A stretch of 36,593 bases of DNA from a virus. Numbering within the stretch: position 1 is the first letter of the stretch; each line of letters starts with the position of its first letter. Of the stretch, positions 3,771 to 34,403 are shown one piece after another. The notes beneath the pieces were generated by a model, which was given only the letters and a program-made list of their open reading frames with translations, did no database searches and had not been told where the DNA came from. The stretch is taken from the IMG/VR virus record IMGVR_UViG_3300049043_000096, positions 1-36,593 of that record. One strand, 5' to 3'. The translations under genes were made by a program, and so were the position numbers.

Positions 3771-4076
3771 TTATTGCCGCCGACGCTGAAACAATCCACC
3801 AAACGGCCGCCATTGCCGTACTCGATTTCGCACACGAGGCAATACGCCTCGCGGTTGTTCGTATTTTTGAGCGACAGGTGCGGATTGTGGGATAGGGCAC
3901 ACACCGCCCGGACAATCTTGCGTGAGGATCGATTTCTCATCCGACGAAGCAGCGACCGGATCGGGAATTGATACCGTGGCGCAATTGCCTTTGCAATCTT
4001 CTGCGGTTGCCGGCACCGAGGCCGCCCATGAAATTGCAATCAACAGCAAACCAACAAACAACACCAAACCACGCAT
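3771..4076 (-). CDS. Secreted small Cys-containing protein with basic C-terminus
   Basis: I chose the ATG at 4076, preceded by GGGAG, because it starts a clear signal peptide (MRGLVLFVGLLLIAISWA, cleavage likely after ATA or TAE). The mature part of about 80 residues has paired cysteines (DCKGNCAT and DCPGGVCPIP) and ends in an Arg-rich stretch (RVRNRVRQW, LFQRRRQ). I associate this design with small secreted proteins of planctomycetes and their phages. It may reach the periplasm as a lysis or exclusion factor; this is inference. Confidence 0.6.
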   Translation of the reverse strand: MRGLVLFVGLLLIAISWAASVPATAEDCKGNCATVSIPDPVAASSDEKSILTQDCPGGVCPIPQSAPVAQKYEQPRGVLPRVRNRVRQWRPFGGLFQRRRQ

Positions 4077-4089
4077 AATTATTCTCCCA

Positions 4090-4923
4090 TTAAACCGCCA
4101 AAGCCAAATCGCCACTTGCGTTTGAAATCGCATAGTGAGCGTGTCGTTCTACAGTAGACGCGAAGTGACCGTTCCAAGTCAACCACGCGTAACCGTCAAT
4201 GCCGTTGTTCAGTCCCCACGATCCGACCTCATTGAACTCGATTTCACCATCGGGATTAATGCGAACATCTTGCACACCGATCGCATGATTTCCGCGACCA
4301 GATGATCTGCCACGTACGCCGCGAGCATCTACCTTTCGATACGCACTACTGGCATGGACCACAGCCACAACAAAAAAGTTTGCAAGTAACGCCGATGCCA
4401 TTTCCAACGCCGAATCAATTCGGAAGCACTCCCACGCTTTGAACCGTTCCGCTGCTTTACGCGCCGATTCCGACATTTGCTTCCATAGGTAGCTTTCATG
4501 CTGTACCAGTTCCTCCGGTGCGGCTCCGACTTCCTCGATTTTCTGCCAGGTCAACTCCGTTGGAGATCCGCGATCGCGTCCGCCATTACACATCGAGTAG
4601 ATAAACTCACCCGATAGCATCTGAAACGGCAAACCGCTAGCAACACGACAACGCGACAGTGCACCCGCAGCCGCATAGCCCGCACACGATCCACGCCGCC
4701 CCTGGTTGCGAATCCATTGCTTGGCCGGGAATCGCTCAATTGCTGGCGTTCGCTCTTGGCTCGCGCATAGCCGCTTGATGGTCTCCAAATCGAGGATCTT
4801 GATTGCCGTCGCAACCGATGGATAAACCTCCGGTCGTTTCCTTGGCAGCCAAAGCCCAGTACGCAGGCCGTCAACAACGTCGTCTTGTTCGATATAGTCC
4901 GCAAGCGATACACGTCGAATCAT
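4090..4923 (-). CDS. Papain-like (C1-type) cysteine peptidase
   Basis: This intact protein of 277 residues carries the papain signature. The active-site Cys lies in NQGRRGSCAGYAAAGAL (about residues 73-89), the His in GNHAIGVQDV (about 220) and an Asn/Trp region at NEVGSWG. The oxyanion Gln is in NQG. C1-type peptidases cleave peptide bonds; in phages they may process proteins or cut peptide cross-bridges. No signal peptide is seen. A strong Shine-Dalgarno sequence (GGAGGTGA) precedes the ATG. It lies among membrane and secreted proteins, so it may be the lysis enzyme; no lysozyme, amidase or chitinase-like lysin was recognised elsewhere. Confidence 0.75.
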   Translation of the reverse strand: MIRRVSLADYIEQDDVVDGLRTGLWLPRKRPEVYPSVATAIKILDLETIKRLCASQERTPAIERFPAKQWIRNQGRRGSCAGYAAAGALSRCRVASGLPFQMLSGEFIYSMCNGGRDRGSPTELTWQKIEEVGAAPEELVQHESYLWKQMSESARKAAERFKAWECFRIDSALEMASALLANFFVVAVVHASSAYRKVDARGVRGRSSGRGNHAIGVQDVRINPDGEIEFNEVGSWGLNNGIDGYAWLTWNGHFASTVERHAHYAISNASGDLALAV

Positions 4924-4950: not shown

Positions 4951-5548
4951 TTAGCTTGCTTGCTGGATTTCGGCAGGGTCTCGCGTTGCAAGTATCTCAT
5001 ACTGAGCCCCGCCAAGCGGCTTCACGAACAGCATCGATGGCGATTTCGCAACTTTTACCAGTTCCGCCGCTTCTGGCTGATCGTCATCCAGTACTCGCCA
5101 CTCAATGGATCGACTCGTCAAGCGAATCCGTAAACGCCTTATTTGCCAGCACTAGCGCGAAATCCATATCACGCTCGGACGCCTCCTCCAAAAAGATCAC
5201 CGCCGCATCCGGGTATTTCGTAACCTGGATCGATGGCAACCATTTCAAAAGGTCGACCGGCAAGCGGGGTAGAGCTGTACCGATCGACCCGAACGCAATC
5301 AGGCCAACACCGACTAAGGCGAGTAAAGCCGGAACCAGCCGATTGCGATTATTCATCGTAGAGCGCTTCCCAACTTCACGCAAAAGGCTTTTAGCTTTTT
5401 CGTTCTTGGTTTGAGCAATCAACCGCTTAATCGTGGAATGCTCATCCAGTTCGCCCGTAGCGATTACGGCCGAGCCGCCAAACGACCAGCCCGATAACCA
5501 CCACAAAAGAGCCAGGCAAACCAATACACCACCTGCAATGATCAGCAT
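4951..5548 (-). CDS. Two-helix membrane protein with soluble C-terminal domain
   Basis: The product starts MLIIAGGVLVCLALLWWLSG (first membrane helix). A charged segment follows, then a second helix (LVPALLALVGVGLIAFGSIG, about 70-90). One frame stops at 5102, but the neighbouring frame continues (WRVLDDDQPEAAELVKVAK, LGGAQYEILATRDP) to a TAA at 4951, so the protein is about 198 residues. The C-terminal alpha/beta pattern, with a PxAVIFLEEASER strand-helix, resembles thioredoxin-like folds without a CxxC motif. It sits in the lysis/membrane module. Function unknown. Confidence 0.6.
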
Positions 5549-9430: not shown

Positions 9431-10700
9431 TCACCCCTTCCATTCTTCAAACTCTTGCACCGGTTCTGCAAACGATTGATACTGCCCGTCAAAAATCAAC
9501 TTAGCCCGAAACGGCGGTCCACCTTTTCGGTTCTTTCGTACAAATGATTTCCACATCTGCTGCTTCTTTAGTCTCGCGGTGCATCAACAGCGAAACGTCG
9601 ATATCCGGCAAAGTTTCTTTCGAGCCCGCATAGTGCGTGTCGTTCGGCTCATTTCCTTCCGCGTCCGCGTTCAACTGCGACAACAACAGAACGGGCACTT
9701 GCAGCTCGCGGGCCATCGTCTTTAGGTCAATCGTGCATTGCTTGATTCGTTCGTGCCTTGGTGCCCGGTGATCCGCCGGTTTGATCAATTGCAAGTTATC
9801 AACCACAACCAACCCTAGGCCCGTTTGTAATTTCATTAACCGCGATTTCGCCCGAATCGATTGCACCGACTCCGCGTGAGCCGTCGTAAACTTGATTCGC
9901 ATTTTTTTTAACTGATCCTCGCACCGCCGAGCGTGCTCTATTTCCCGCCGCGTCAAATCGCCTTTTGCAAACTTGTGGATCGGGATCTGTGCAACCCTCG
10001 CCAGCAATCGGTCGACCAACTCACCGCGCGACATTTCCAGCGACACAAACAACACTGGCGCCCGGCTTGCCATCCGATAGGCAAACTCGAGCGCGAGGGC
10101 TGTCTTTCCCATGTAGGTTCGGGCCGCGATCTGCCAAAGCTGGCCGGGATACATGCCGCCCGTCTTCGAGTCGATACACCGCAGGCCCGTCAGCACCGAT
10201 TCCGATTCGCCCGTTTCAAGCCGCTTTTCGTGGCCGGCAAGCACTTCCTCCACAACCTCATCGATCCCGACTATGGGCGATTCCGCACGCCCTGAGCGAA
10301 TCCGCATGACCTCCGACTCGATCCACGCGACCAGATCCGCAGGTTCCACCCGTGGATTGCCGCCGACCTCCGAAACCAGCCTAGCCCCTAAAACCTCCAA
10401 ATATTGCGCGTGACGCGTCCGCATTAGATCGTGACAATAATCCCGAACCGACAACGGAGAACCCGCCTTTGCCACCAAATTGGCGATTTGCGACGATTCG
10501 AGGCCGAGTCGCAACGCCAACGGAACCATTCGCCCGCTATTCGTCTGCGTTTTGGCTATGTCAATAAGTTTTGCTAATACTGGGTCACTGAAGAACGATT
10601 CATCCAGTTCGCAACCCAGAAGGGCCGAGGGGGCAATTATCGCCAAGCCAGCGAGGGCCATCTCCGCATGACGGCGTTCCGTCTCAAGTTGCTCGTGCAT
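9431..10700 (-). CDS. DnaB-like replicative helicase
   Basis: The start at 10700 (MHEQLETERRHAEM) overlaps the end of the initiator gene. An N-terminal helical domain (LGCELDESFFSDPVLAKLID) resembles DnaB-N. The RecA-like core has Walker A IAARTYMGKTALAL, the SLEMSRGELVDRLLAR motif, Walker B GLVVVDNLQLI and VPVLLLSQLN. The usual GxGKT Walker A reads TYMGKT, close to the DnaB RPSMGKT. One frame stops at 9501, but the next continues VRKNRKGGPPFRAKLIFDG, the canonical DnaB C-terminus, to a TGA at 9431. The protein is about 423 residues; it unwinds the replication fork and would be loaded by the adjacent initiator. Confidence 0.85.
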
Positions 10701-11578
10701 TTTCCTTCGCCTTTCGTGCTTCCATCGCCGCCCATCGTTCCGCATCTTCCTTCGCTACCTGCTGGCGGTGCAATTCGAGTTTTCGCTCGGTCTCGCGCCG
10801 TTCGGCCTCTTTGCGTTCCTCGTCGTGGAATCGAGTACAGCAAGACCTCATCAGGTGGGCATTGCTGCAAGCCCTGCCAGCCCTTGGCGATCGTCCGCCG
10901 CATCGAGGCTACCGCGAGATCCGGTCCCATGCGGGCAAGCGTGTCAACCAGTCCACGGGCCGCCGATTCGGTCATCGGCTTTTCGATTTCCTTCCGGTGT
11001 TGGCACCATGCCGCCCAAGTGGCCTTCACCAACGGGTAATTGATCTTCGACGGGAATTGAATTGTTGTTGCATCAAACTCCCAGATTCCCCCAAGGGGGG
11101 CTTAGGGGGTTTTGTATTTCTCTTCTTCTGTTCTCTTCTCTTCTGTGGTCCGATTTTTGTCCAAATCTTTCTGGATCATTTCCTGGACATTTTCTGGACG
11201 CGGCTCGTTCCTCTCGTTTTCGCTGTGCATCCTTCATTCTTGTTTTGGCTGAGGCGCTCAAATACTTAGAAAACTCGGGCATTTTCAACGCATTCGGTTC
11301 CACAGACAACCAGCCGACCGCTACCACCGCCTCGCTAAAACCTTCAATCCCGACCTCATCATCTAGTCAGGAAAGTGGTGTATCCGATCGACTCTTCCGT
11401 CATCTGTATGCCGATCAAAAAGCGACCACATACGGACTAACGCCCCGACAATCTCGGACGTTTTTCGGACACGCTCGGACTTTGTTCGGACACATTCTGG
11501 ACAAAGTTTGGACAAAATCTGGACAACTTGCGGACATCCAAATAAGTCAACACGGACGGGAATCCACTCACCAGCCAT
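10684..11578 (-). CDS. Replication initiator/helicase loader-like protein, frameshifted
   Basis: The ATG at 11578 opens MAGEWIPVRVDLFG and LVRMWSLFDRHTDDG, the opening I know from phage replication proteins with a winged-helix N-terminus. A second frame supplies AVVAVGWLSVEPNAL and FSKYLSASAKTRM. After a C6 run near 11093 a third frame gives PSKINYPLVKATWAAWCQHR and MRRTIAKGWQGL, the usual C-terminal partner domain. The end is a charged helix (EERKEAERRETERKLEL) to a TGA at 10684. About 298 residues are predicted after three or more shifts. It overlaps the DnaB-like gene and lies behind the RNA element at 11593-11731. Confidence 0.65.
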
Positions 11579-11592
11579 TGCCAAACACCTTC

Positions 11593-11689
11593 AAAAAGAC
11601 GCTCCCTACATCGCAGTTGATACCCGACTGCCCACGAGGGCGCAGAAAGCGACATAGGGAGCGGTGTGTTCTGTTTCGTCGGGTATCAA
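11593..11689 (-). ncRNA. Interleaved-stem RNA leader ending in an intrinsic terminator
   Basis: In minus-strand RNA order: stem S2 5' arm TTGATACCCGAC (11689-11678), S1 5' arm CGCTCCCTATGTCGC (11663-11649), S2 3' arm GTCGGGTATCAA (11628-11617), S1 3' arm GCGATGTAGGGAGCG (11614-11600), then TCTTTTT (11599-11593). S2 is 12 perfect pairs plus four more (GCAG/CTGC) after a bulge; S1 pairs 13 of 15. S1 plus the U-tract is a textbook rho-independent terminator. The two stems interleave and share bases 11613-11614, so they are probably alternatives (antiterminator versus terminator) or a pseudoknot. The initiator ATG lies 14 bases downstream. DNA origin function is also possible. Confidence 0.7.
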
Positions 11690-11701
11690 TCGACTGCACA
11701 A

Positions 11702-11731
11702 ATTTTAGCGGATCTTCGCGGGCCGCGTCAA
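11702..11731 (-). promoter_or_regulatory. Sigma70-type promoter of the replication genes
   Basis: TTGACG (11731-11726) and TAAAAT (11707-11702) each match the bacterial consensus in five of six bases with an 18-base spacer. The predicted start, near 11695, is just ahead of the first arm of the interleaved-stem RNA. The -35 overlaps the stop region of the upstream gene. Confidence 0.65.
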
Positions 11732-11976
11732 ACTTTCTCGCGGTCCCGCATCATCTTAAACGACCACTCAGCAAACCGACCGTATGCCATGTGGTCGCCG
11801 CGAGGGTCAAACGCATCCATCAAGGTTTGCCGTTGCTCTTTGGTTATCACACCCTCATTTTCAGCTCGGAACAATAGCCGCATGATTTGCAGCCACCATA
11901 GCTTGTGCGTCCATTGCACAATGCGAATACCAATGATGGTGTATAACATCACGACGATCGTCAGAACGTACCGCAT
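11728..11976 (-). CDS. Small membrane protein
   Basis: The ATG at 11976 overlaps the upstream stop. The 82-residue product begins with a hydrophobic helix (MRYVLTIVVMLYTIIGIRIV), followed by an amphipathic region (MRLLFRAENEGVITKEQRQT). No family is recognised. Confidence 0.55.
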   Translation of the reverse strand: MRYVLTIVVMLYTIIGIRIVQWTHKLWWLQIMRLLFRAENEGVITKEQRQTLMDAFDPRGDHMAYGRFAEWSFKMMRDREKV

Positions 11977-12257
11977 CAAATCACCTCGCCAATTGAATCA
12001 CTGTCCAACAACTTCACCATCGCCGCCGCTTCCTCTTCGCCGTGGATCAACCGCACGATTTCCATCGCGCCGCGAAAGCGGGCCGGATCTGCTTCCGACC
12101 ATCGAACCTTTTGCTCCGCGATCCCCGCCGGGAGCCCGTGCGACTTGCACAGCTCGACCGCCTCCGCTCGCGTGAGATCGTAATCGGTGAAGTTATCTAC
12201 CACTTCACTGAATCGAGCGTATTGCCCGTTCGGCTGCTTAATGATTCGCCACGCCAT
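11976..12257 (-). CDS. Conserved phage hypothetical protein
   Basis: The start at 12257 follows GGAGGG at a good distance. The 93-residue product begins MAWRIIKQPNGQYARFSEVV, then NFTDYDLTRAEAVELCKS. I have seen this W(R/K)IIxQPNGxYARFSxxVDxFTxYD pattern in small proteins of many phages; no function is known to me. It is coupled to the downstream membrane protein. Confidence 0.6.
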   Translation of the reverse strand: MAWRIIKQPNGQYARFSEVVDNFTDYDLTRAEAVELCKSHGLPAGIAEQKVRWSEADPARFRGAMEIVRLIHGEEEAAAMVKLLDSDSIGEVI

Positions 12258-12340
12258 TTCAATCCCTCCATTCAACGGCAACCAACACCCATACCGACGA
12301 TCAACCATACCACACACAACCAAGTCATTGCGTCCATACA

Positions 12341-12565
12341 TCACCCTCGCATTTCTGCTCGGTCAATCGCTTCCATTTCCGACCGCGAAATCGGCGCCTG
12401 GCAATCCTTTGCGGCACATCGAAACGTGTTGATCACCTTTTCACACCGATGCGTTATCCGGTGCCCCGCACACCGAGGGCACCGCCAGCAGTGGTATGCG
12501 ATCACAAATTCAAGCAGCTCGTTTTCATCAATCGTCGGTAATCCGTAAAAGTCTCTGCGAGCCAT
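12341..12565 (-). CDS. Small zinc-ribbon protein
   Basis: The 74-residue product has WRCPRCAGHRITHRC and FRCAAKDCQAP, two paired Cys sites suited to bind one zinc ion. A strong ribosome-binding site (GGAGGCGAT) precedes the ATG. It probably binds nucleic acid; the target is unknown. Confidence 0.6.
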   Translation of the reverse strand: MARRDFYGLPTIDENELLEFVIAYHCWRCPRCAGHRITHRCEKVINTFRCAAKDCQAPISRSEMEAIDRAEMRG

Positions 12566-30131: not shown

Positions 30132-31726
30132 TCAGCCGAACCCACTGGCGGCCGCTGGTGGAGCTGGCAAAGCTCCAGCACTATTCACGATCGCTTTTCC
30201 CGACGCGATCTGATTCAAAATCGTAGTCGGTATTCCGGTATCTTTGATCGGTACCGAAACGAGCTCTCGCCAGTGCAACGGCGGTTGATCGGGAAGCGTC
30301 GCCCGATTTCCTCGGCCGCTAGCATCGCCCGCACAATGGCGTACGTTCGATCCTCAATCGTTTCATCAACGATCGTTTCATAGTCTCGACCATTGCCGTT
30401 ATATTGCCGGCGAGGGCTGTTGAGCATTTCCTGCAGAACCAGGGCATTTGCTGCCGCATCATCCATTGGATTGATATACGGCCACGCTGGCGGGTCCCAC
30501 GAGTGCTTGAAATAGTTCTTACCAAGCCGCTTAGCCGCTCGTTCTAGGGCCGGATCATCCTGAGCGGCTACCCACGCCCGCCAGTTCCAGATCGGCTTAT
30601 GAAACTTGGTCGAGATCGCTTTTTGATTTGCGCGGAATCCCTTGCGGGCCTCATCCACCGCACCACGCCACCCGCTATAGTTCGTTTCCCGATCCGTCCA
30701 TGAATAGCACGCAAAGCGGGAGACCCAAGTTGATACCGATCAATTGCAACTGCGTTTTGTGCTGCATTTCATAGCCGCCGCCCGGAATATTCGGCGAGAA
30801 CGCCGTGAAGTCTTCACCGACCTCGCCCGTTACCTCCATACCTGGGCCGATGTTTTCGAGTATCCGGATGCCCGCCGAGGTTTGCTCTGTTTCGCTCTGG
30901 CCGTAGCCCGGTGTTGCCATCGGATTCGTCGCTTGCTGCGTCCGCTTGCGGAAGATCGTAAAGCAGCTCGCGACCTGTCGCTGTACCAGCAATGCAAATT
31001 CGATATCATCCCGAAAACTGGGCAATCGTGGTGATCGGTGTATATGCCGAGACTCCACGCGTCGCCCGCACCCGTTTCGGAACATAAACGTGCATCACCT
31101 GCCGCAATCCCTCACGCGAAAACACCGGCACTGGCACACTCTGCGAGGGTTGCATGTGCGGTTCGATCGCATCCGCCCGAATATGGAAGTGAGTTCGCTG
31201 GCGGCTTCCGTCCATCGTGATACCTAACACCGTCATCGGCATTCGCGTTCTCGGTCTGAACCTCGTGAGCCTCCCATAAGCTTAGTTTTCCGCTTGGGTT
31301 TGCTGTGGCTGTGATATCGCCATTGCGCAGTAGCGCTCGGGTTACAAACACTTCCATCTCATGGAACGTACTTTCACCGGATTCGTCGCATTGCTCTGGA
31401 TCTTCGGCCCAGTCCCAAAAGCGGTTCCAAAGCTCATCATCGACCGCTTTATCACCCGTCGCCGGGTTTGGCATGAATCCATCTTGAATGATGTTATTCA
31501 CCGCGAGGGTTGTTCCTGCGGAGATCGCTGCATCGTCCATATCGAGCTGCCGCGAAACCTCAATATCTCGATAGTACAAATACTCATTGCGATAATGCCA
31601 GTCAGCACTAGCACCGCGATAAGCAAGGCCATCACGCTTTCGGGTGTATCTGTTTTCCCTGGATCGGTCATATTCGGCCCGAAACCTATCAAACTTGGAA
31701 ACCATCGTATCTTTGCTTCGGCTCAT
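30132..31726 (-). CDS. Portal protein (lambda family)
   Basis: Five minus-strand pieces join: DRSRENRYTRKRDGLAYRGA and DIEVSRQLDMDDAAISAGTT; then GITMDGSRQRTHFHIRADAI; then DIEFALLVQRQVASCFTIF and GYEMQHKTQLQLIGINLGLP; then KGFRANQKAISTKFHKPIWN and DDPALERAAKRLGKNYFKHS; and LPDQPPLHWRELVSVPIKD to a TGA at 30132. The order of motifs matches the lambda gpB portal family. About 530 residues are predicted with four shifts. The portal forms the 12-fold ring for DNA entry and tail joining. The start overlaps the preceding stop. Confidence 0.8.
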
Positions 31727-32010
31727 CGGCGAAACCCTGTCCGTGTCGTTAAAAAGCGAACCTTGGAAGTGGTCGACGTGCTGCCGCCGATCGAGTTCAA
31801 ATAGGCCTGAGCATCCCGCATCTGGGACTCAATTTGAGCGATGTTCGTCGATGTTGAATGACCATCATCCGACGATGACGCCGGCATCATCACGATCAGT
31901 TTTGTGGCCGCCGTGACAAACGCTTCCGCCTTCGCCCGGCTTGGCCCTATCCGCCAATCGGCATTCACCTGGAGCGTTGCAACAAGCGTTTCGTAATCTT
32001 CAATTACCAT
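31723..32010 (-). CDS. Small head protein of unknown family
   Basis: The 95-residue product starts MVIEDYETLVATLQVNADWR and contains GPSRAKAEAFVTAATKLIVM and IAQIESQMRDAQAYLNSIG. Its size, position just before the portal and helical nature recall gpW-like joining proteins, but no clear similarity is visible. Its stop overlaps the portal start (ATGA). Confidence 0.6.
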   Translation of the reverse strand: MVIEDYETLVATLQVNADWRIGPSRAKAEAFVTAATKLIVMMPASSSDDGHSTSTNIAQIESQMRDAQAYLNSIGGSTSTTSKVRFLTTRTGFRR

Positions 32011-32403: not shown

Positions 32404-34403
32404 CTATCGCCTTATAAAGTTACCCGCCGAAAACTTTGGCCGTGATACATTCACCGCCGACTTTTGAACCGTAATTGGCCGAGGTGCCGGTTTGGCTGCT
32501 GCGGTTATTTCATCGCGAGACAATACCCGGATCTTAAACACCCCGCCGACCGTACACGCAAGCGCCGTTGCGTCGAGCCAATGGTTGTTCTTGCTTTTCA
32601 AAACCATCTGGTTCACATAGCCCGAACCGACCGGAACCCGCGTTAGTTCCTCCGCGATTATATGATGGCTGAATGCCGAATGCCTCTTGATGTCCTGGCC
32701 TGGATGATAAAGAGCCAGGCTTCCGACCGTTCGATCACCGTCGTCAGCGTATGGCGCGCACCGCGAACCGCGAGTGCGTCCACATCTTCCAATACTCGGT
32801 GTTCACATTGTAAAGCCACAATTCTTGCGACGCGTCATAGTGGGCATAACATTGATCGAACAACACCACGCCCTTTTTAGCCTGCGGCATCTTAAACCGC
32901 TTGTTGTCCCAACCCTTCGACGGAAACATCGGGAGGCCGTTCGCCCTAGCCTGCCTGCACGCCGCATAAACCGCATCGGTGAACGCTCCGGAGTCCGCAA
33001 GCGCTCCGTCAATCTTGTACGGCTTCAGATCATCCTCTATCCAATCCAGCAATAGGTTCTTGAGCATTACATCGAGGGCCGCTTTCGACTCAAGATCCTT
33101 TTCGTTCGTTGCATAGGTCGCTTTGCAGCCATAGTCAATGATCGTTCCGATACCCGGATTTCGGAACGCGATCACCACCCAATGCGATAACCGCTTGCCA
33201 ACGTCGATAGCCGCGACAATCCGCTCGGTGTTGTCCGGCAAAACTCCCTGCGTTTGCACCGCCAACCGCGACCGAACCAAGGCCGCCGATAGTGCTTCCG
33301 TCTCGACGATTTCTTCGGCCTCAGGCTCGTTTTGCTTTTCGGCCAGGAACGCAGCCATATCATTGGTAGCAATCCAATTGTAAGCCGCCTGAATCGCGTG
33401 ATGCACCTGCGGTTCTCCATCGACGATCTGCGGGTCAAATCCATCATCGTTCATCACCACGCCCGCGATCATCTTGTCGTAGTTTTCGAGGAAATACTTA
33501 GTCGCATCCTTTGCGATCTTATCCCCGTGCCGCTGTGCGTTCTGCCGTCGCGTAACATACTCTTGCCACATATCAAGCTCGGTCGGCCATTGCTCAATGA
33601 GCCCGAATCGCTTGCCGTCAAACGCTGGCTTGATAGCCGGATCGGTCACACGCCACGAATAGCAAATCCTGATTCTGAATTGTGGTGATTACCACCCGGC
33701 AAAACTTCTTCCCATGCCCTCCAAGGCCGCCTATGTCGCGATCCATCGTCATTTCGCGTAGTGCAACCTGTTCCGGGTTGCGGGCCGAGTCTCGCGTTTC
33801 TGGGTCATCGACAAGGGCCAGATCAGGCCGAGCCCCACGAATATTGATCCCGCGAAAAGCCGCATCGAGTCCGTGATAGGTCAGCTTCACGCCACCATAC
33901 GGGCTGCCAGGCACATAGGGCAACTGTAGCAGCTTGGTCGATTTCCAAATGATCTTGGTCAGTTTACCGTCGACGTGCTGACGCCTCGCCCGCTGCGGTG
34001 CCCCTTCTAGCTCGCGTACCGGGTGGCAAATCTCGGGAAGTCTTCATACAGCAAATCATTGCCTTCGAACTGGTTTTTCACGTCATCAAAGATGTTAAAC
34101 GCAAGACGAGGCCGTTGCACCGATAGCAATCGGGAATCGAACAATCTGGGCCAGAATCAAATAGACCAAAACGGCTTTCAGCAATTCCGTCTTGCCGATT
34201 CCGCGAGGGGCTGCCCATGCCTGGTCCGTTCCTTTTCTCGCGCTTTTGATCACCGTATCAACCAGTTTAATATGAAGCTTCGAGAAAGGCCGGAAAAATC
34301 GATCTGAGTAATAGGTCCGCATCATCTCAAACGGATCAGCCAAGCACCGCCGCCGCCGTTCTGGGTTTTTGCATTCCGGAATTGTGATCGCCGAACCAAG
34401 CAT
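32404..34403 (-). CDS. terL: Terminase large subunit
   Basis: A first frame (MLGSAITIPECKNPERRRRC; HIKLVDTVIKSARKGTDQAW) carries Walker A AAPRGIGKTELLKAV near residue 70. A second (LVDDPETRDSARNPEQVALR; IGGLGHGKKFCRVVITTIQN) holds Walker B and the following motif, and a third AAIDVGKRLSHWVVIAF with the nuclease Asp and IDGALADSGAFTDAVYAACR. The last piece (DIKRHSAFSHHIIAEELT; KNNHWLDATALACT) is the usual terminase end. About 665 residues with three shifts. Together with TerS it recognises cos, cuts DNA and pumps it into the prohead. Confidence 0.85.

Follow-up and report, generated by a model that had tools for sequence, protein, structure and literature searches.

The 36,593-nt stretch of viral DNA analyzed here (IMG/VR record IMGVR_UViG_3300049043_000096, positions 1 to 36,593; the window) carries, just ahead of its replication initiator gene, a structured RNA element that has no earlier name and whose structure is well supported by sequence comparison. 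The element appears to be new although its kind, a terminator-coupled leader or a small RNA, is known, and it probably decides the switching-on of the replication gene. The window's own copy, Ew, runs on the minus strand from 11731 to 11593, between a short gene (11979-11728) and the initiator gene; two further copies, E1 and E2, lie in a distantly related phage, L026. A sequence-only reading had described a promoter, two interleaved long stems (here S1 and S2), a TCTTTTT run and a distance of 14 nt to the initiator, and all of these are present on the minus strand. The features, in the direction of transcription, are the following.

11702-11731, minus strand: sigma-70-like promoter, TTGACG (11731-11726), 18 nt, TAAAAT (11707-11702), 10 of 12 consensus matches
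11593-11697, minus strand: predicted RNA of about 100 nt, starting at about 11697/11694 and ending at the U-run (11593); 87.5% identity across 112 nt to E1 (L026 3833-3942); fold z-score -3.98
11678-11694, minus strand: 5' hairpin H1, GTCG[ATTGATACC]CGAC, which holds most of the S1 5' arm and belongs to the minimum-energy S2 state
11678-11689, minus strand (11689-11678): S1 5' arm, TTGATACCCGAC, 12 of 12 pairs with the S1 3' arm
11664-11677, minus strand: linker L1, GAAACAGAACACAC, A/C-rich, 14 nt (13 nt in E1; about 16 nt, also A/C-rich, in E2)
11649-11663, minus strand (11663-11649): 5' arm of S2, the terminator stem, CGCTCCCTATGTCGC
11629-11648, minus strand: linker L2, containing P3; its length is 20 nt in Ew, E1 and E2
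11641-11630, minus strand: small hairpin P3, GCCC[TCGT]GGGC, 4 bp, a part that the sequence-only reading lacked
11617-11628, minus strand (11628-11617): S1 3' arm, GTCGGGTATCAA, inside the S2 loop
11600-11614, minus strand (11614-11600): S2 3' arm, GCGATGTAGGGAGCG, pairing with the S2 5' arm
11593-11599, minus strand: U-run TCTTTTT of the intrinsic terminator (TTTTTT in E1 and E2)
11576-11592, minus strand: Shine-Dalgarno-like GAAGGTG and initiator ATG (11578-11576), the ATG 14 nt past the U-run
10640-11578 (also 10640-11584), minus strand: replication initiator gene (phrog_2509 / O-like), in frames 11578-11363, 11327-11073 and 11101-10640
11433-11560: GGACA-type iterons with 11-bp phasing, inside the initiator gene (probable origin)
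9501-10745, minus strand: DnaB-like replicative helicase of the same module, downstream of the initiator gene (Pfam DnaB_C, E 2.3e-46)

S1 lengthens from 12 to 16 pairs through GCAG/CTGC around a 4-nt bulge, and S2 has 13 Watson-Crick pairs out of 15, or 15 out of 15 when two G-U pairs are counted, in agreement with the sizes of 12-16 bp and 13 of 15 bp given earlier. The stems do interleave, as had been claimed, but the bases that they were said to share are found only in the 4-bp GCAG/CTGC extension of S1; the two 3' arms themselves are separated by the nucleotides CT. By its sequence, S2 is predicted to act as an intrinsic (Rho-independent) terminator, with 15 pairs followed by the U-run in Ew and compensated stems followed by a U-run in E1 and E2. 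Its loop of 34 nt is unusually long, which is why a simple terminator scan missed it. The promoter, which had been called good, keeps its 10 matches to the consensus but taken alone is at chance level (one site found in a scan of the region, 1.1 expected).

A search with the pattern of the S1 arms gave three matches, of which one is a true relative, in the 19.9-kb record IMGVR_UViG_3300034073_001575 (L026); the matches in L003 and L004 are unrelated. Gene order along the whole L026 record follows that of part of the window, and the proteins in common are mostly 35-58% identical, compared with 87.5% for the RNA itself (E1). Conservation between E1 and Ew begins at GCAGTCGATT, just beyond the -10 box, and ends past the terminator. 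E1 matches Ew across all of S1, while two adjacent S2 pairs are altered on both sides with pairing kept. A promoter (TTGGCT-17-TATAAT) stands at the equivalent place before E1, and TATAAT before E2. E2, about 600 nt downstream of E1, was found by reading L026 and then confirmed by the structural scan described below. E1 and E2 have TATAATGCTGGNAGTCGAT in common, and the region after E2 resembles the one that follows the element in the window (AAGGTGTTTGNNNATGGCTG), with AAAGGTGTTTGCGGATGGCTG as the Shine-Dalgarno region after E2 versus GAAGGTGTTTGGCAATGGCTG after Ew.

E2 is strongly diverged in its paired parts. Its S1 arms are TGTGGAAGTCGG/CCGACTTCCACA and its S2 arms CGCCTCAACTAGTGC/GCGCTGGTTGGGGTG, with linkers of 16, 20 and 1 nt. 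MAFFT misaligned this copy, and pair changes were counted by script on a hand alignment. Ten of the 12 S1 pairs differ between E2 and Ew on both sides and all are paired; of the 14 S2 pairs, about half show changes in both arms among the three copies, and each is either a standard or a G-U pair. P3 reads GCGT[ACTC]ACGC in E2, with two of its four pairs changed on both sides. Since E2 changes paired bases on both sides yet keeps the pairing, we consider this strong evidence from sequence that S1 and S2 are both real, interleaved stems; compensated variation of the arms in related phages was the check that the sequence-only reading had set, and its outcome favours that reading. Two alternative structures, one of them a terminator and both compensated between Ew/E1 and E2, give the element the form of an attenuator.

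G-U pairs are limited to S2 (two in Ew, two in E1, four in E2), and S1 is strictly Watson-Crick in the three copies and in the L070 element described below. All three copies have a promoter upstream and a U-run and Shine-Dalgarno sequence downstream, and every known copy ends 10-15 nt before a start codon. Because of the S2 G-U pairs, which are of use only to the RNA of this strand, and these strand-bound signals, selection seems to act on the RNA of the minus strand rather than on origin DNA. The sequences themselves show two stems, strand-specific selection on RNA, the form of a terminator, a kept order of parts and a position before replication genes in related phages. This close family consists of three copies in two phages and is not tied to initiators alone, as E1 precedes an HNH gene (phrog_59 type) and E2 a second HNH gene and the initiator.

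The structure goes beyond chance expectation. None of 200 shuffles was as stable as the Ew RNA, and the pairing of S1 given S2 has a p of about 1/5000. Duplex energies with internal loops are a poor statistic, and contiguous-helix scores were used instead. The joint interleaved pattern scores 67.5 in Ew versus at most 59.5 in four dinucleotide-shuffled sets of 1.6 Mb each. Seven leaders were put through a linear fold model, which cannot handle a pseudoknot. In every one, S1 is complete in the predicted fold of the nascent chain that ends at the S1 3' arm, and the finished chain favours the state with H1 and the S2 terminator by 2.8 to 10.1 kcal/mol. Early S1 and a later S2 terminator in all seven therefore fit the needs of a co-transcriptional switch.

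We consider it fairly probable, from the sequence, that Ew regulates the replication operon as its cis-encoded leader and, in addition, gives rise to a short RNA. The promoter would start transcription about 100 nt ahead of the initiator gene, and S1 would form first, when its 5' arm meets the 3' arm as the RNA emerges. With S1 stable and lengthened by the GCAG/CUGC clamp, S2 would be hindered and the initiator gene would be reached by read-through transcription. Capture of the S1 5' arm in H1 or by another partner would instead let S2 form, and transcription would stop at the U-run, giving the RNA of about 100 nt. This terminated RNA contains both S1 arms and could pair with new transcripts and hold their S1 5' arm in trans; more transcription would then bring more termination, as in plasmid copy control. 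That the promoter is used and that termination occurs in cells is what we infer from these sequence signals, and the feedback in trans is, above all, put forward by analogy.

S1 and S2 have no overlapping arms. Hindrance of S2 by S1 would have to come from topology or from the S1 extension; otherwise the two stems coexist as a pseudoknot. Exclusion would rest on a steric argument, namely 12 bp with 0-2 nt between the two 3' arms. A pseudoknot is possible but stretched: by our estimate, it needs 13-16 nt of linker to bridge about 27 bp. S1 may even help termination in such a pseudoknot. We tentatively favour S1 as an antiterminator over S1 as a pseudoknot partner.

The uses proposed in the sequence-only reading were expression control of the replication genes, a short RNA, or origin DNA; a short RNA and/or a terminator/antiterminator leader is the best reading, and origin DNA is disfavoured. 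A free-standing small RNA is rather unlikely. In this reading, S1 and S2 would form a compact pseudoknot with a target elsewhere, either a host protein or an RNA of host or phage, and the next gene would be a mere neighbour with its own or read-through expression. The reading would agree with the element's own promoter and terminator, with the position of E1 before an HNH gene rather than an initiator, and with the near identity of Ew and E1 although the phage proteins diverged. However, the paired sequence of E2 is almost wholly new, which leaves AGTCGA and CTGCG as the only possible fixed target sequence conserved between it and Ew. The position of every known copy 10-15 nt before a start codon also speaks against it, and a second perfect S1 target was not found within the window.

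A constitutive pseudoknot terminator or transcript stabiliser, insulating the replication operon from upstream transcription without any switching, we regard as quite improbable. S2 with its U-run is a plausible strong terminator, and the genes upstream of Ew lie on the same strand, but a plain hairpin would be enough for this purpose. Moreover, compensatory changes preserve S1, whose pairs are all Watson-Crick in Ew, E1, E2 and L070, and the element has its own promoter inside the insulated stretch.

The initiator gene contains a probable origin. Within 11121-11560 there are 10 matches to the GGACA-type motif versus 0.7 expected, eight of them within 11455-11558 and mostly in 11-bp steps, and iterons inside the initiator gene are the layout of phage origins of the lambda O type. 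That the element itself is origin DNA with cruciform stems, or a primer RNA whose 3' end primes at the adjacent iterons, is nevertheless very doubtful. The phased iterons start about 40 nt past the U-run in the window, but the repeat block of the L026 initiator lies about 900 nt past E2; the G-U pairs of S2 would weaken any DNA cruciform, the promoter, U-run and Shine-Dalgarno sequence are bound to one strand, and E1 precedes an HNH gene. The repeats in the L026 initiator (5463-5525) are of a GGTAC type, in steps of about 23 nt. Mimicry of a host repeat, as an RNA anti-CRISPR or otherwise, can practically be dismissed, since the weak match of the CTTTCTGCGCCCTCGCGGGC part to CRISPR-DR21 (16.8 bits, E 1.6) is far under the gathering score (48), E2 does not retain this part, and a repeat array of that sequence was not found in the one bacterial genome matched.

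The N-terminal pieces of the initiator correspond to phrog_2509 and the C-terminal piece to the O-like phrog_678. More than one reading frame is needed to cover each of the initiator, portal and terminase genes (10640-11584, 30218-31828 and 32747-34043), and DnaB (9501-10745) seems shortened. This looks like assembly indel errors or decay, and single-base details of the contig need care because the frame breaks resemble assembly indels.

We scanned about 60 viral loci, which were chance-level pattern picks (1.67 million strand-bases), for two interleaved stems followed by a U-run. Ew, E1 and E2 scored 64.5-67.5 and a locus in L070, chosen without regard to genes, 64.5; the rest reached at most 54.5. 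Scores below about 60 in the strict scan carry little weight alone, since a non-element site in phage 11b reaches 58 (an interleaved terminator at L139 18213-18302, between genes 38 and 39 and away from the initiator). Another candidate of this form in the window (18657-18558, minus strand), before another gene, scored 42.5, at background level.

The L070 element stands directly after TTATCTTTG (also given as TATCTTTG), which we take to be a Bacteroidota-type promoter; promoters of this group have the form TAnnTTTG. Its U-run ends a few nt ahead of a DUF6291 gene, relatives of which are annotated as 'replication protein' in Flavobacterium phages. The contiguous pairing given composition has a p of 0.005, and L070 is likely a true further case. 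Following the DUF6291 gene family led to the Flavobacterium phages elemoA and 11b. In elemoA, TATCTTTG is followed by the hairpin GTTATTA[AGGTGAGAGC]TAATAAC and the terminator loop contains GGCTCTCA; in 11b, TATATTTG is followed by GTTATTA[TTCGGGCAGGTC]TAATAAC and the terminator loop contains GCCTGCCCG. The H1 stem (GTTATTA/TAATAAC) is identical in the two phages; what differs is the H1 loop, together with the stretch complementary to it in the terminator loop. H1-like 5' hairpins occur in E2 and L070 as well. Both Flavobacterium phages have a small ORF between leader and replication gene, and contiguous pairing given composition has a p of 0.008 in each. The 11b leader is the best promoter-linked candidate of its genome (48 vs 41), though an unlinked site scores higher. 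We regard these two leaders as plausible, similar but weaker cases.

In Cellulophaga phage phi13:2 the leader pairing has a p of 0.005, but this case is doubtful because a conserved small ORF overlaps the leader and makes coding a rival explanation. This unannotated ORF (MKNIDYVPLNYQMLVRGLWF...) overlaps the leader in phi13:2 (L136 1099-1200) and phi19:3 (L138); between the two, one T is lost and one gained, cancelling each other, and its stop overlaps the initiator start. The leader of phage ctnlZ23 showed suggestive pairing (p 0.22) and was dropped. For the Bacteroidota phages this leaves L070 as the single strong case and two or three weaker ones (p about 0.005-0.008 each), chosen from about a dozen loci. 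The element was absent at the Riemerella, Vibrio, Aeromonas, epsilon15-like and further loci checked, and most initiator loci checked, including epsilon15-type loci and 19 prophage loci, were without it.

These look-alikes hint at a wider class before phage replication genes. We further speculate, as an unlikely extension, that at least two unrelated phage groups carry a self-contained RNA switch before their initiators, in which the H1 loop is complementary to the terminator loop. Feedback in trans would come from the terminated RNA, and loops that change with their pairing preserved would define specificity groups. A second copy with the specificity of another phage (L026 E1 vs Ew) could then shut off replication of a competitor.

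Searches against known families and further records were mostly empty. Rfam 15 gave no match over the whole window; for the E1, E2 and L070 regions, with E values of up to 10 allowed, all matches were unrelated and below threshold. ARAGORN predicted no tRNA or tmRNA gene in the window or L026. Three further viral sequence scans, exact and near-exact, revealed no homologue beyond L026, nor did blastn of phage and plasmid records, whose matches were chance ones in coding DNA. A proteobacterial intergenic hairpin (L029, JAJZDX010000005.1, 2937-3025), single-copy in its genome, has 29 exact bases in common with the element, namely the S1 arms and the CTGCG that follows, and lies upstream of a ribosomal-protein/EF-G cluster. 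It is without S2, U-run and interleaving and was set aside as a copy; the resemblance is probably due to chance among many hairpins. A promoter-like site for an antisense RNA was not found on the plus strand in 10500-12500 by a consensus scan, which is a weak test. Tandem RNA repeats of a type III toxin-antitoxin system were not found either, and the downstream genes are the initiator and DnaB, or HNH.

Among described systems, IsrK of the Salmonella prophage Gifsy-1 is a working precedent for a short terminated RNA combined with a read-through mRNA (PMC4825925): a prophage promoter yields a short RNA whose 3' end is set by an intrinsic terminator, and the read-through isoform is the mRNA of the next genes. 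IsrK also has alternative structures, and its short form acts in trans on the long form; the likeness to Ew is one of locus layout only. In contrast to Ew, IsrK controls translation of orf45/anrP and not a replication initiator, and IsrK is not known to have an interleaved S1/S2 pair with the terminator loop. RNAIII/repR of plasmid pIP501 resembles the proposed Ew leader in the early termination within the leader of a rate-limiting replication initiator, decided by loop-loop RNA pairing, but inhibition there is due to a true antisense RNA made from its own opposite promoter, whereas the sole candidate inhibitor in Ew is the terminated leader (PMC4981023). The c4 RNA of P1/P7 is a phage RNA just upstream of the operon it controls, with loop specificity as a basis of immunity specificity; unlike Ew, it blocks translation of ant (PMC12197685). 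Type III antitoxin RNAs (ToxI, CptI) share the order of pseudoknotted RNA, terminator and gene, but Ew has neither tandem repeats nor a downstream gene of a toxin family. The P4 CI RNA, like c4, lies upstream of the operon it controls and has loop specificity as a basis of immunity; it is processed and uses seqA/seqB/seqC repeats, unlike the S1/S2 arrangement.

To our knowledge, few phage models have been worked out in detail as to how the making of the replication initiator is timed and limited, and most of these rely on protein repressors or antiterminators. The element described here is compact and testable, a small RNA leader with strong compensation that occurs twice in one phage with different sequences, and look-alikes stand before Bacteroidota phage replication genes. 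Action in trans, if true, would give an RNA basis for copy control or for competition between phages. The case also shows that scans based on architecture pick up phage RNAs overlooked by Rfam and by sequence searches.

In L026, E1 and the first HNH gene (3820-4450) are flanked by two copies of GTATAATGCTGGNAGTCGAT, as an insert would be. It looks as if a homing endonuclease brought the foreign leader E1 into L026, and E1 with the first HNH gene would then have been inserted ahead of the native leader E2. The best conserved protein of the group is a papain-like cysteine protease (C1 type; window 4093-4923, L026 10310-11143). Such a protease is common to three otherwise different phages, and the third, L028, has only the peptidase module in common.
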